A stretch of DNA of 33,756 nt from a virus, in the IMG/VR virus record IMGVR_UViG_3300030380_000444, positions 266 through 34,021 of that record. One strand, given 5' to 3'. The notes below the pieces were generated by a model that did not search any database, was not told where the DNA came from, and saw nothing but the letters and a program-made list of their open reading frames with translations. Positions 30,029 through 33,756 of the stretch are shown here, one piece after another. The position numbers and the translations under genes are program-made. Each line of letters begins with the position of its first letter. Position 1 is the stretch's first letter.

Positions 30029-30880
30029 TTACCTGGGCATCTTCATTTTATTACTGAGCCTCTTGACCATATCCTGTACTGATAGCTGCTTGTTATAAGC
30101 CTTATCCTTCCTAAAGAATACATCCTTAAAGAAATACATAGTACCTGGACAATCTCTTCTGTTCTCTTTTCTCCATTGTATGGTTCTTCTCATTGCAATC
30201 ATAGCTGCATCAAACGATAAACCTTTACCTACCCAATCTTTTACTAAATCTTCTTGCTTGGTATCGTAGATTTTATGCTGTCCGAATATTTCTTCACACA
30301 ATTTTACATATCCATTACATATAGCTCTACTAGTATTAAGAATATATATATTGTTAGTTGGAGTGTTATGTATGTAGTCTGAGTGCATATCTACATATGT
30401 ACTGGAGTGAATATCTGTCTTTTTATCCTTATCTTTAGTATGTACTCTGGGTGCATAATTACTTTTATGCTTAGTATTAGTTAATGGGCCTTTCGGAACA
30501 TCTACCTTCTCTTCGAATGATCTATCATCTACTGTAGCTATTGCCTTCGCATCCTCTTCCTTAATCTTAGGATCAAAGACCATGAAGTATTTGTTGCCTT
30601 TTAATCCAGGATGTTTCTTCGCATATCTTATGTATCCCCATTCAATTAACTTCTTAATGTGCCTGGATACAGTTGATTGTGTGATCTGTAGGTTATTGGC
30701 AATAGTAATCTGATTAGGCCAGCACACACCGGTTCTGGATGTGTAGTTACCTAGACAAGCCAGGATCATAAAGGTCCTCGGATAATTCTTAAATCGAGGA
30801 TCTACTACAGCTCTTTGTGGTAGTACACAGAATGCTCCAGGTGTCTTGCCCTTACCATAATCAGCTTTGTTCTTTGGCAT
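30029..30880 (-). CDS. Replication-initiator-like winged-helix protein
   Basis: This 283-residue protein has an N-terminal winged-helix domain (about 14-102): FCVLPQRAVVDPRFKNYPRT, then GVCWPNQITIANNLQITQST and VSRHIKKLIEWGYIRY, as in phage and plasmid replication or HTH_36 proteins. A charged linker (110-175) and a C-terminal domain (about 180-283) follow, with VKDWVGKGLSFDAAMIAMRR and a basic end. It probably binds the phage origin and recruits host factors, in the manner of lambda O-like proteins. The adjacent intergenic repeat region is a natural candidate target. It overlaps the DnaA-like gene by 20 nt. Confidence 0.68.
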   Translation of the reverse strand: MPKNKADYGKGKTPGAFCVLPQRAVVDPRFKNYPRTFMILACLGNYTSRTGVCWPNQITIANNLQITQSTVSRHIKKLIEWGYIRYAKKHPGLKGNKYFMVFDPKIKEEDAKAIATVDDRSFEEKVDVPKGPLTNTKHKSNYAPRVHTKDKDKKTDIHSSTYVDMHSDYIHNTPTNNIYILNTSRAICNGYVKLCEEIFGQHKIYDTKQEDLVKDWVGKGLSFDAAMIAMRRTIQWRKENRRDCPGTMYFFKDVFFRKDKAYNKQLSVQDMVKRLSNKMKMPR

Positions 30881-31361
30881 CGAGAAGTTGCTTTTTAATC
30901 TTGTTGAAGTCGTTCCATAATTCTAATCCATGATCCTTCTTCATGCTCCAATGTTTGGTGTTAGTTTGTTTTAACTTCTCATGATAGCATACAGTTGTGT
31001 GATCTCTCTGACCACATTGCCTGGCTATGTACGTTACACCATGCCTGGTTAATTCTAAACTTAGATTAATAAATAAAGATCTAGCTCGAACTAATTCCTT
31101 GTACCTTCTTGATCCTAGTATCTCTGATGGAGTGAAATCCATGTACCTACAAACAGCAGCCATAATATCATTAAGCCAGATCCTACCTTTGTACTTCTCT
31201 GGAGTGTATGCGATAGCTGCTTTCTTTAGTTTTAACTCTTCTTGTTTCTTCTCTATCTCTTGCTCTAATTGTTCTATTTCAATTACATCTAGATCATGTT
31301 TAGATAGTCGGTTTAGCTCTTTTGCTGGTCGTATAACATTATTAGGTATTGGGGTTACCAT
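30861..31361 (-). CDS. DnaA domain IV-like DNA-binding protein
   Basis: In this 166-residue protein, residues 65-131 match the C-terminal DNA-binding domain of the bacterial initiator DnaA: IMAAVCRYMDFTPSEILGSR, ARSLFINLSLELTRHGVTYIA, then the signature RDHTTV (119-124), whose DHTT residues contact the DnaA box in bacteria. The AAA+ ATPase domain of DnaA is absent; instead a coiled coil (about 25-50) precedes the domain. It could bind DnaA boxes in phage or host DNA, to help initiation or to compete with host DnaA. It sits between DUF3310 and the initiator-like gene, overlapping both by 20 nt. Confidence 0.82.
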   Translation of the reverse strand: MVTPIPNNVIRPAKELNRLSKHDLDVIEIEQLEQEIEKKQEELKLKKAAIAYTPEKYKGRIWLNDIMAAVCRYMDFTPSEILGSRRYKELVRARSLFINLSLELTRHGVTYIARQCGQRDHTTVCYHEKLKQTNTKHWSMKKDHGLELWNDFNKIKKQLLDAKEQS

Positions 31362-31722
31362 CTTTATCCTCTTTCTTTTTTAGTTTTACAATCTTAGCGC
31401 CAGGGTTCAGTAGCTCCTGTAAATCTTCCTCAGTTAAATCTTCTAGATTTATGTCTGTTAGATCTTTTTGTTTTTTCTTTTTTAATTTATTGATTTGATC
31501 TGTTAGCTCTTTGAGTAGCCTCTCTAAATACCAATGAGCTTTACCGGCATCATCCCTGGCTCCTTCAAGAGTTACTACCTTCTTACCCATACGCATTATG
31601 TATTTTAAGATCTGACCTTTGATGTATCCAATCTTCTCTGCTGTTGTCATTTGTGAGATGATCGCATCAAAAGTTTGTATTGGATTATCTTTGTAGTGGG
31701 GTGGATTTATTTTATCTGCCAT
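31342..31722 (-). CDS. DUF3310 protein (SaV-like)
   Basis: This 126-residue protein has the DUF3310 pattern at residues 5-70: INPPHYKDNPIQTFDAIISQ, then GYIKGQILKYIMRMGKK and DAGKAHWYLERLL. The family is widespread in phages beside replication genes and has been linked to nucleotide kinase-like annotations, but no activity is established from this sequence. The C-terminal third is Lys/Glu-rich, probably disordered. It starts 1 nt after the WPTP gene's stop. Confidence 0.78.
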   Translation of the reverse strand: MADKINPPHYKDNPIQTFDAIISQMTTAEKIGYIKGQILKYIMRMGKKVVTLEGARDDAGKAHWYLERLLKELTDQINKLKKKKQKDLTDINLEDLTEEDLQELLNPGAKIVKLKKKEDKDGNPNT

Positions 31723-31723
31723 A

Positions 31724-32968
31724 TTATTCCTTCCATTCTATTGTTGTTGTGTGAGTTAACTCTTCGTTAAATTTAATGGGATTAAGATGTTGTTTGATTT
31801 TGTTCCAATCATCTATTGAAGGATAACTGAAACCTTTTTCATCGTATCTAAACCAATGCTCAACTGTAGTTAATTTTATGTTAGTTAATGCAGCTAAATC
31901 TTTTGGATTAGTTTGAGATCTTAAATAATCTACAAACTCTTTTTGATTAGGTAACTGATCTCTTTTTACCATCTCATCTTTTAAAAGTGATTGTATTTGC
32001 TCTGGATTGTTTTTTAATTGTTCCATTGCAATATCCATAGACAAAGTTTTTTGAACCGGATGATTAGATGATCTTTTTACCTTACCAGCTAATATCCTAG
32101 CAGCATACTTTTCAACATTTTGATTAGTATCCATTGCTGTTGGTGTTCTAAACATCTTCTTGGATTGCTTGAATGATGCATTGTCCAACTGCGTATGCGA
32201 GTTGGGGTACAACTGCGTTTCCGAGGGATTTAATTCTGTCCACCCTATTGGGAACCCCATTAGCCACTCTACCCACATTGGGTTCAGATGAGAACCAGGA
32301 GCTTTCTCTTGAAAAGCTACTTCTGTTTCCAAATATTTTTTGTGTCGTAGCTTGGCCATGTTCTTTGTTAACTTCATTGTCATACCTATTGCTGCTCTTG
32401 GAGTTGGCCACATTCTTACTGTGTCTGCTAGGTTCAGAGAATGACTGTTCTTGCCATCCTTCGTTAATCTTCTCCCGGTTGGAGTTAGTTTCATGTTGGG
32501 ATGTTCTATCTCTTGTGTCGTTGGAGTTGGCCACATCTTGACTGGGTTCGAACTCGCTGCGTCTTTTATTGCTGTTATTAAATTGATTTGATGTTTCTTT
32601 TCTCTCAAATTTTTCTGACTTCGTGGACCTCTCTTTCCATCCCATGCATTTGGAGTTGGCCATAGCAATGATGAACACTCTGTACCTTCTGTGTGGGGCA
32701 TTGATTGCACTAGCTGGTAATATAAAAGGTTGTACTTCGTAACCTTCGCTTTCCAAGTCAGAGATACAAGCTCCGAGTGCCATTTGTACGTTAATAAGGC
32801 CTGGCACATTTTCTCCAATAACGATTGATGGTTTTGCATCTTTAATAATTCTAAACATCTCTGGCCATAAGTGTCTTTCATCATTTTTGCCTTTTTGTTT
32901 TCCGGCAACAGAGAAGGGTTGGCAAGGAAATCCTCCCACAATAACATCGGATCTAATTTCTTTACCAT
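31724..32968 (-). CDS. 'WPTP' protein overprinted on the methyltransferase gene
   Basis: In this 414-residue protein, residues 1-273 lie in the +1 frame of the cytosine methyltransferase gene. Features are SLTWKAKVTKYNLLYYQLV (69-87), three WPTP motifs (103-106, 146-149, 187-190) and a related FRTPTAMD (273-280), LNPMWVEWLMGFPIGWT (228-244), and a C-terminal domain outside the overlap (about 339-395: NQKEFVDYLR, LTTVEHWFRYDE, FSYPSIDDW) that looks helix-turn-helix-like. I recall database proteins with the same WPTP and GFPIGWT elements beside phage methyltransferases. GAGGG lies 6 nt before the ATG, supporting independent initiation. A 414-codon frame without stops in AT-rich DNA, ending 1 nt before the next gene, argues for real coding. 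Function unknown. Confidence 0.75.
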   Translation of the reverse strand: MVKKLDPMLLWEDFLANPSLLPENKKAKMMKDTYGQRCLELLKMQNHQSLLEKMCQALLTYKWHSELVSLTWKAKVTKYNLLYYQLVQSMPHTEGTECSSLLWPTPNAWDGKRGPRSQKNLREKKHQINLITAIKDAASSNPVKMWPTPTTQEIEHPNMKLTPTGRRLTKDGKNSHSLNLADTVRMWPTPRAAIGMTMKLTKNMAKLRHKKYLETEVAFQEKAPGSHLNPMWVEWLMGFPIGWTELNPSETQLYPNSHTQLDNASFKQSKKMFRTPTAMDTNQNVEKYAARILAGKVKRSSNHPVQKTLSMDIAMEQLKNNPEQIQSLLKDEMVKRDQLPNQKEFVDYLRSQTNPKDLAALTNIKLTTVEHWFRYDEKGFSYPSIDDWNKIKQHLNPIKFNEELTHTTTIEWKE

Positions 32969-33137
32969 CTATATCCCTCACATCTGGAATGATTGGAACA
33001 TTGGGCCAATGCTTTTTTAAAACTTTTTGACAGAAGGGATCTAATTCTGAAAATAGCTCTGTCTTGAAATGTCCTGTCATTTCTAATCCAAGATCTATTC
33101 CACCAATTCCAGAAAATAATGATGTAACTGTTAGCAT
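32148..33137 (-). CDS. DNA cytosine-5 methyltransferase
   Basis: This 329-residue enzyme transfers methyl from S-adenosylmethionine to C5 of cytosine. Motifs appear in order: I SLFSGIGGIDLGLE (6-19), IV GGFPCQPFSVAG with catalytic C72, VI ENVPG (109-113), VIII HRRYRVF (149-155) and IX-X RIKSLGNAVVPQ (301-312). The region that should hold target recognition (about 160-290) is Asn/Ser/Arg-rich with repeated VANS/MANS elements, an odd composition that coincides with the overlapping WPTP frame. No restriction endonuclease is nearby, so protection of phage DNA from host restriction is the likely role. It directly follows the ribbon-helix-helix gene. Confidence 0.9.
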   Translation of the reverse strand: MLTVTSLFSGIGGIDLGLEMTGHFKTELFSELDPFCQKVLKKHWPNVPIIPDVRDIDGKEIRSDVIVGGFPCQPFSVAGKQKGKNDERHLWPEMFRIIKDAKPSIVIGENVPGLINVQMALGACISDLESEGYEVQPFILPASAINAPHRRYRVFIIAMANSKCMGWKERSTKSEKFERKETSNQFNNSNKRRSEFEPSQDVANSNDTRDRTSQHETNSNREKINEGWQEQSFSEPSRHSKNVANSKSSNRYDNEVNKEHGQATTQKIFGNRSSFSRESSWFSSEPNVGRVANGVPNRVDRIKSLGNAVVPQLAYAVGQCIIQAIQEDV

Positions 33138-33373: not shown

Positions 33374-33418
33374 TAGGAAATGAACAATATAAGAACAACA
33401 ATGATAGGAGTTAGTACA

Positions 33419-33756
33419 ATGAAGAAGTATGTGGGTTACACTAGAGTTAGTACAGATAAGCAAGGTAAAGAAGGTTATGGATCTGCTGATCAATTACAAA
33501 CTATTAATGAGTTTGTTAAGAATGATGAGCTGTTACAAGTATTCCAGGAAGAAGAAAGTGGATCTAAAAATAATAGACCACAATTAACACAGGCCCTGGA
33601 ACTATGTAAAAAAGAAAAAGCAACTTTGGTTATAGCTAGACTTGATAGACTATCTCGTAATCTTGCATTCACAGCATCATTAATGGAAAGTAACATTGAG
33701 TTTGTATGTTGTGATATGCCATCAGTAAATAAATTTACGATACAAGTTTTGGCTGC
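33419..33756 (+). CDS. Serine recombinase, N-terminal catalytic part (3' end cut by window)
   Basis: This catalytic domain of a resolvase/invertase-type serine recombinase opens with KKYVGYTRVSTDKQ, with nucleophile S11 and supporting R9, and continues to LVIARLDRLSRN with D76, R77 and R80, the conserved active-site set of gamma-delta resolvase. The sequence runs to FTIQVLA, where the family's long E-helix begins, and is cut by the window end. I chose ATG 33419 because AGGAG (33406-33410) lies 8 nt upstream; in-frame ATGs at 33380 and 33401 are less well placed. The C-terminal part is at 1-291. It may resolve multimers, invert a segment or integrate; sequence alone does not decide. Confidence 0.9.
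   Translation, partial: MKKYVGYTRVSTDKQGKEGYGSADQLQTINEFVKNDELLQVFQEEESGSKNNRPQLTQALELCKKEKATLVIARLDRLSRNLAFTASLMESNIEFVCCDMPSVNKFTIQVLA

Follow-up and report, generated by a model that had tools for sequence, protein, structure and literature searches.

A C5-cytosine methyltransferase very probably made as two polypeptides from overlapping reading frames of a phage gene and its relatives

The window, the whole stretch of viral DNA analysed here, comprises 33,756 nucleotides and is part of a 34,021-base IMG/VR virus record. Two long open reading frames overlap on its minus strand. The first, alpha (positions 32148–33137), encodes a C5-methyltransferase of 329 residues with motifs I to VIII, a neutral linker and motif X. 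Alpha matches PF00145 (E 4.9e-55, residues 3–322), TIGR00675 (E 2.6e-47) and phrog_363, and the match to PF00145 together with the invariant motif columns indicates that the catalytic core of a C5-cytosine methyltransferase (motifs I, IV with PC, VI with ENV, VIII and X) is present. The second, beta (31724–32968), lies in the +1 frame and encodes a WPTP protein of 414 residues, composed of an N-terminal region, putative recognition cassettes, motif IX and a C-terminal tail. The Pfam and NCBIfam scans of beta returned no family match. A separate profile search of the WPTP protein matched phrog_1008, labelled "DNA methyltransferase" (E 7.8e-35), showing that relatives of the protein are already grouped there and that it is not wholly undescribed. 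The two frames share 821 nt (273 codons), and beta runs 141 codons further.

Elsewhere in the window, the phage ORF at 30861–31361 encodes a DnaA C-terminal helix-turn-helix domain (PF08299, E 1.3e-15) and is adjoined by a DUF3310 protein (31342–31722). A serine resolvase N-terminal domain (PF00239, E 1.1e-19) is encoded on the plus strand at 33380–33754, where the gene leaves the window at its end.

All features of the pair are on the minus strand. A GAGGG Shine-Dalgarno-like site (32975–32979) precedes the beta ATG (32968–32966) with a spacer of 6 nt. Alpha motif IV, GGFPCQPFS with the catalytic Cys, is located at 32910–32936 and is invariant in alignment A4, and motif VIII, APHRRYRVFIIA, at 32664–32699, occupies conserved columns of the same alignment. 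The stretch of 32663–32968, which encodes alpha motifs IV to VIII together with beta residues 1–102, including SLTWKAKVTKYNLLYYQLVQS, is constrained in both frames. It is followed in beta by the recognition region with three WPTP cassettes (residues 103–227, 32288–32662), where alpha reads as an ANS/VANS linker. The beta motif IX, LNPMWVEWLMGFPIGWTE (residues 228–245, 32234–32287), reads SEPNVGRVANGVPNRVDR in alpha, and alpha closes with motif X and a C-terminal helix, IKSLGNAVVPQLAYAVGQCIIQAIQEDV (32151–32234). The same bases are therefore read as MANS.. in alpha and WPTP.. in beta, and as RIKSLGNAVVP in alpha and TELNPSETQLYP in beta. The original prediction had described two long overlapping frames that are both real, these paired readings, a GAGGG ribosome site belonging to beta and a unique C-terminal part of 141 codons. 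The coordinates and the content of both frames were confirmed, the readings proved exact, and both frames are conserved.

The non-overlapping tail of beta (31724–32147) carries a further cassette-like MFRTPTAMD and has no Pfam match. Beta tails longer than 100 residues were found in just 4 of 243 family members, and that of the window has a close relative in locus L113. The window tail holds one more RTP cassette, along with an uncharacterised domain that L113 shares. The long beta tails of loci L035 and L039 are additional WPTP cassettes.

The overlap of alpha and beta is real and goes beyond chance. When synonymous codons were shuffled with the alpha protein kept, beta was open in 1 of 20,000 trials, with a mean of 8 stops, so that a chance frame of such length is very unlikely, as had been argued from the sequence of the window. 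Among 87 loci beta was open in all, while the shuffles were open in about 1% or fewer. The beta-frame HMM score over the same loci has a median of 295 bits, versus 86 bits in the shuffles (shuffle maximum 152); one of the 87 loci scored, L044, was wrongly clipped, which makes the null too high.

The beta starts fall inside the alpha gene and are accompanied by initiation signals throughout the family. A Shine-Dalgarno sequence of at least 4 nt is found before the beta start in 83% of the genes versus 27% in shuffles, and one of at least 5 nt in 51% versus 10%. An ATG is present in 88% versus 60%. Counting against a two-polypeptide reading, 37 of 319 beta ORFs are without a clear ATG near the N-terminus.

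The pair is widely distributed. Relatives of the WPTP protein were found in 586 viral stretches and in 94 phage records; a divergent query raised the latter to 342. When the methyltransferase served as query, 80 loci were retrieved, and beta was in the +1 frame in all 80. The pair of alpha and beta is also present in genome contigs of Bacillota, Bacteroidota, Pseudomonadota, Marinimicrobia, Acidobacteriota, Planctomycetota, Spirochaetota and others. In 10 genomes, the 12 strong family members all carry beta, and 9 clearly canonical C5 enzyme loci are without it; one more canonical locus gave only a beta match of 62 residues and 30 bits, which is within what the code alone yields. On the Roseovarius chromosome OX638333.1, at least five places (L229, L230, L232–L234) have an identical beta-frame match score, which probably means that the pair is there in five near-identical copies.

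Selection was estimated as dN/dS by a simple OLGenie-like counting of single changes with Jukes-Cantor correction, on blastn-aligned gap-free stretches of 89 independent pairs; the saturated classes (SS and some SN) were excluded from the conclusions. The dN/dS of alpha is 0.07 before the overlap, 0.15 in motifs IV to VIII, 1.01 (0.87–1.19) in the cassettes, 0.73 in motif IX and 0.09 in motif X. For the beta frame the corresponding values are 0.70, 0.38, 0.13, 0.14 and 0.74. The differences at alpha codon positions 1, 2 and 3 change from 0.11, 0.06 and 0.36 before the overlap to 0.30, 0.10 and 0.07 in the cassettes, and those at the third position decrease from 0.36 to 0.195 in the doubly constrained stretch of IV to VIII. 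The frame under constraint changes exactly at the functional boundaries. Dual coding, which had been proposed for the whole overlap, thus holds for roughly motifs IV to VIII and fails from VIII to X, where beta alone is selected and alpha is a neutral open linker. Purifying selection on one frame only, the pattern named in advance as speaking against a second gene, does occur between VIII and X, yet stops are absent from alpha there.

This openness of alpha is pronounced. In 241 genes, which were picked for an alpha ORF reaching motif X (among the 329 scanned loci the exceptions were just L192 and L241), no stop was observed in alpha across the cassettes and motif IX versus 1,401 expected from the beta protein. 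Alpha was stop-free through the cassette region in 241 of 241 genes versus 3.2 expected, and the third frame contained 2,846 stops in the same region versus 2,490 expected. Since alpha stays open here with neutral residues, it is presumably translated through as a linker to reach motif X. In the usual single-chain form, a constrained recognition region and motif IX are in the same polypeptide; alpha, with values of 1.01 and 0.73, was found to have neither under such constraint. As for L241, its beta is cut by a shift, and the locus looks decayed.

The alternation of constraint between frames could also be produced by programmed ribosomal frameshifting. Ribosomes would translate motifs I to VIII in alpha, slip to beta for the cassettes and motif IX, and perhaps slip back for motif X, yielding one fused enzyme. 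Fused single-frame relatives do occur in actinophages, and genes that are closely related can differ in being fused or split. However, the arrangement of the window would need two shifts to reach motif X, and start signals belonging to beta are enriched. The beta N-terminal region, constrained at a dN/dS of 0.38 over IV to VIII, would be of no use to a frameshift product, and the absence of stops from the neutral region of alpha would be pointless if ribosomes left the frame. A frameshift gene is recognized by a downstream frame without a start and an upstream frame free to close, which is not what was found. The openness of alpha and the start signals of beta disfavour frameshifting, and we consider it highly unlikely.

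The identity of beta is indicated by its motif IX and by its relatives. The beta pattern L-N-P-x-W-V-E-W-L-M-G-F-P-x-G-W has the spacing of a canonical motif IX, for example L-T-V-R-E-A-A-R-L-Q-S-F-P-D-S-Y of an enzyme from the control genomes, and alpha is without that pattern. In beta, LNPMWVEWLMGFPIGW shows both the canonical spacing of motif IX and its position before motif X. Alignment by hhalign of beta with the single-frame actinophage enzymes (98%, E 1.8e-13) placed WPTP on their LLPTP cassettes and LNPxWVEWLMGFPxGW on RLAAAFPEWMMGWPAGW, directly before motif X; the part of beta from WPTP to IX is thus homologous to what these enzymes have between motifs VIII and X. An LNP..WVE..LMGFP element before motif X had been ascribed to single-frame methyltransferases and taken as a sign of an evolutionary frame shift. 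Such enzymes were found, and the frame shift is correct.

Other comparisons of beta were less informative. Against canonical methyltransferases alone, the profile alignment falls at motif IX and is not significant (E 0.39). The PADLOC oMTase model, the sole methyltransferase model in the libraries outside PHROGs to match beta, does so in the right register but weakly (E 3e-4; 2 of 100 members). A Pfam scan of isolated IX–X segments yielded no useful match, which is unsurprising for pieces so short. The AlphaFold prediction of beta alone was poor (pLDDT 66.5, pTM 0.33), and fold recognition with this model gave no significant match; such a result would fit a partner-dependent part, yet is no evidence for it. 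The predicted structure of a single-frame relative matched the fold of M.HhaI over the full length (E 5.5e-15), with confidence in the core and in IX–X, and low confidence in the cassette region.

Rearranged relatives carry the same parts in other combinations. In L192, alpha ends after motif VIII and beta runs through motif IX into motif X. The mycobacteriophages BubbleTrouble (78/77) and YungJamal (7/6) and the Arthrobacter phages ArV1 and Jamun have an alpha with motifs I to VIII and a beta with cassettes, IX and X, and the same division is seen in the actinophage loci L330–L333. Fully fused single-frame forms are represented by L334, L340 and L346. The whole enzyme is also in one frame in Filuzino gp68 and its relatives, and a gene that is fused in one phage may be split in a near relative. 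Cassettes are present past the alpha stop as well in L035 and L039.

Two further observations concern these loci. The L192 copy, from a Bacillota MAG (L192:2751–4053), contains LNPDWVEWLMGFP plus a separate WLPEPDIPRVAVGVKDRANRVKCLGNAVVP, both in one frame. In about 30 single-frame actinophage relatives (L334, L339–L378), a leftover +1 ORF of the beta N-terminus stops at the same place. The beta-frame TAG sits exactly at alpha V-D-L-L-P-T-P (e.g. near 2739 in L346), and the Val of this motif is nearly always GTA despite the GC-rich genomes. The shared TAG end of the leftover ORF looks selected.

Beta might instead be a protein in its own right, with a function unconnected to the methyltransferase whose gene it overprints. 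Such a reading would agree with its own start signal, the absence of any Pfam or NCBIfam match, and the long unique tail in the window and L113. We assign this a very small probability. Alpha is without motif IX and a constrained recognition region, and the matching region of beta is homologous to precisely this portion of the single-frame enzymes; in the split genes (L192, L330–L333) motif X itself is on beta. No beta without alpha was found among the 329 loci. That the beta frame is an untranslated by-product of the conserved methyltransferase frame is scarcely conceivable, for although shuffled alpha genes still score about 86 beta-like bits, and alpha EPxVGRVAxGVPNRVDR and beta LNPxWVEWLMGFPxGW largely fix each other via the code, the real score of 295 bits exceeds the null maximum of 152, the cassette region is selected in beta and not in alpha, and cassettes occur past the alpha stop and in single-frame proteins, the HMM scores, dN/dS and synonymous shuffles ruling out a chance or by-product frame.

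The number of cassettes, by a simple pattern count, ranges from one to seven per family member. Between the window and L011, identity is 100% over alpha motifs I to VIII but only 59% in the beta cassettes. The window and L012 are 44–55% identical in the catalytic part of alpha and 87% identical in the beta cassettes, with 58% for the alpha reading of the cassette bases. Judging from these identities, the cassettes apparently exchange between genes.

The methyltransferase and the separate WPTP protein of the original prediction are better understood as two parts that complete each other in one enzyme. Very probably, the pair encodes a single C5-cytosine methyltransferase in two polypeptides, alpha being the catalytic part and beta contributing the cassettes and motif IX. 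Alpha would provide the SAM-binding and catalytic core of motifs I to VIII, followed by the open, sequence-neutral linker and motif X. Beta would be started from its own Shine-Dalgarno sequence inside the alpha gene, and would provide the recognition domain of tandem exchangeable WPTP cassettes together with motif IX. The two polypeptides would then assemble physically into an active, sequence-specific enzyme with cassettes that recognise the DNA target; this enzyme probably shields the phage DNA from host restriction. The selection pattern and the rearranged relatives suggest that both polypeptides are required for activity.

The arrangement is known as a kind from M.EcoHK31I, the beta polypeptide of which was reportedly placed by Lee, Kam and Shaw in 1995 within the alpha gene, in another reading frame. 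In the phage pair, the small polypeptide is in the +1 frame of the large one's gene, with an overlap of 821 nt in the window, and this is kept across the retrieved set. M.EcoHK31I has been called naturally split (PMC3439449) and consists of a larger polypeptide with motifs I to VIII and X and a smaller one with motif IX (PMC3404938). In this M.EcoHK31I, a YGGCCR methyltransferase like M.EaeI, resembles the phage pair, the likeness being one of motif layout as described. The predicted recognition domain of M.EcoHK31I was placed in the larger subunit (PMC3404938), whereas that of the phage enzyme is assigned to the smaller one by selection and homology; going by the selection pattern, the small subunit should house the recognition domain as well. 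Phage beta further differs by its several exchangeable WPTP cassettes and, in the window phage, by the tail of 141 codons.

M.AquI likewise has two polypeptides, with the recognition and motif IX part apart from the catalytic part. Its small subunit, however, contains both IX and X (PMC3404938), while motif X of the window stays on alpha. The pairs of L192 and of actinophage L330–L333, with motif X on beta, are closer to M.AquI. The single-frame actinophage enzymes, such as Mycobacterium phage Filuzino gp68, have the same order as the pair, namely motifs I to VIII, PTP cassettes, IX and X, but differ in that all are in one frame and the beta N-terminal ORF alone persists in +1.

In the databases, phrog_1008 holds the relatives of beta and phrog_363 those of alpha. 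Both are labelled just "DNA methyltransferase", and the annotation is silent on the overlap. Both ORFs are annotated in several phages (e.g. Leyra, K1ind1). In two RefSeq E. coli prophage copies alpha is annotated and beta is not, and a table of Klebsiella plasmids, known to be incomplete, lists alpha alone. Usually the pair is left unannotated. With just the catalytic half annotated in the two E. coli records, a specificity prediction would therefore read the neutral linker. For a methyltransferase of a Bacillus anthracis prophage, the target of EaeI has been predicted (PMC4722110), and this type of enzyme may thus already have been met in prophages. No description of the overlap in phages was found in the open-licence literature, within which the breadth of the family, the selection switching between frames and the evidence for a recognition domain in beta are new.

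It is rare for a long same-strand overlap to have independent support in both frames, and in this one selection is seen passing between the frames and back along a single gene. Tentatively, and with a little less than even confidence, we propose that the pair belongs to a very large, mostly unannotated family of C5-methyltransferases in phages and bacteria, in which the whole sequence-reading part, with tandem recombining cassettes and motif IX, lies in the other frame of the catalytic gene. Specificity could then be swapped by recombination without touching the selected catalytic residues, and several cassettes may give several specificities. If this is true, the family would offer a split methyltransferase of natural origin whose recognition cassettes can be exchanged, the recognition domain would be reassigned to the small subunit instead of the large one, and the findings suggest that M.EcoHK31I is the type case of a widespread family and not a curiosity.
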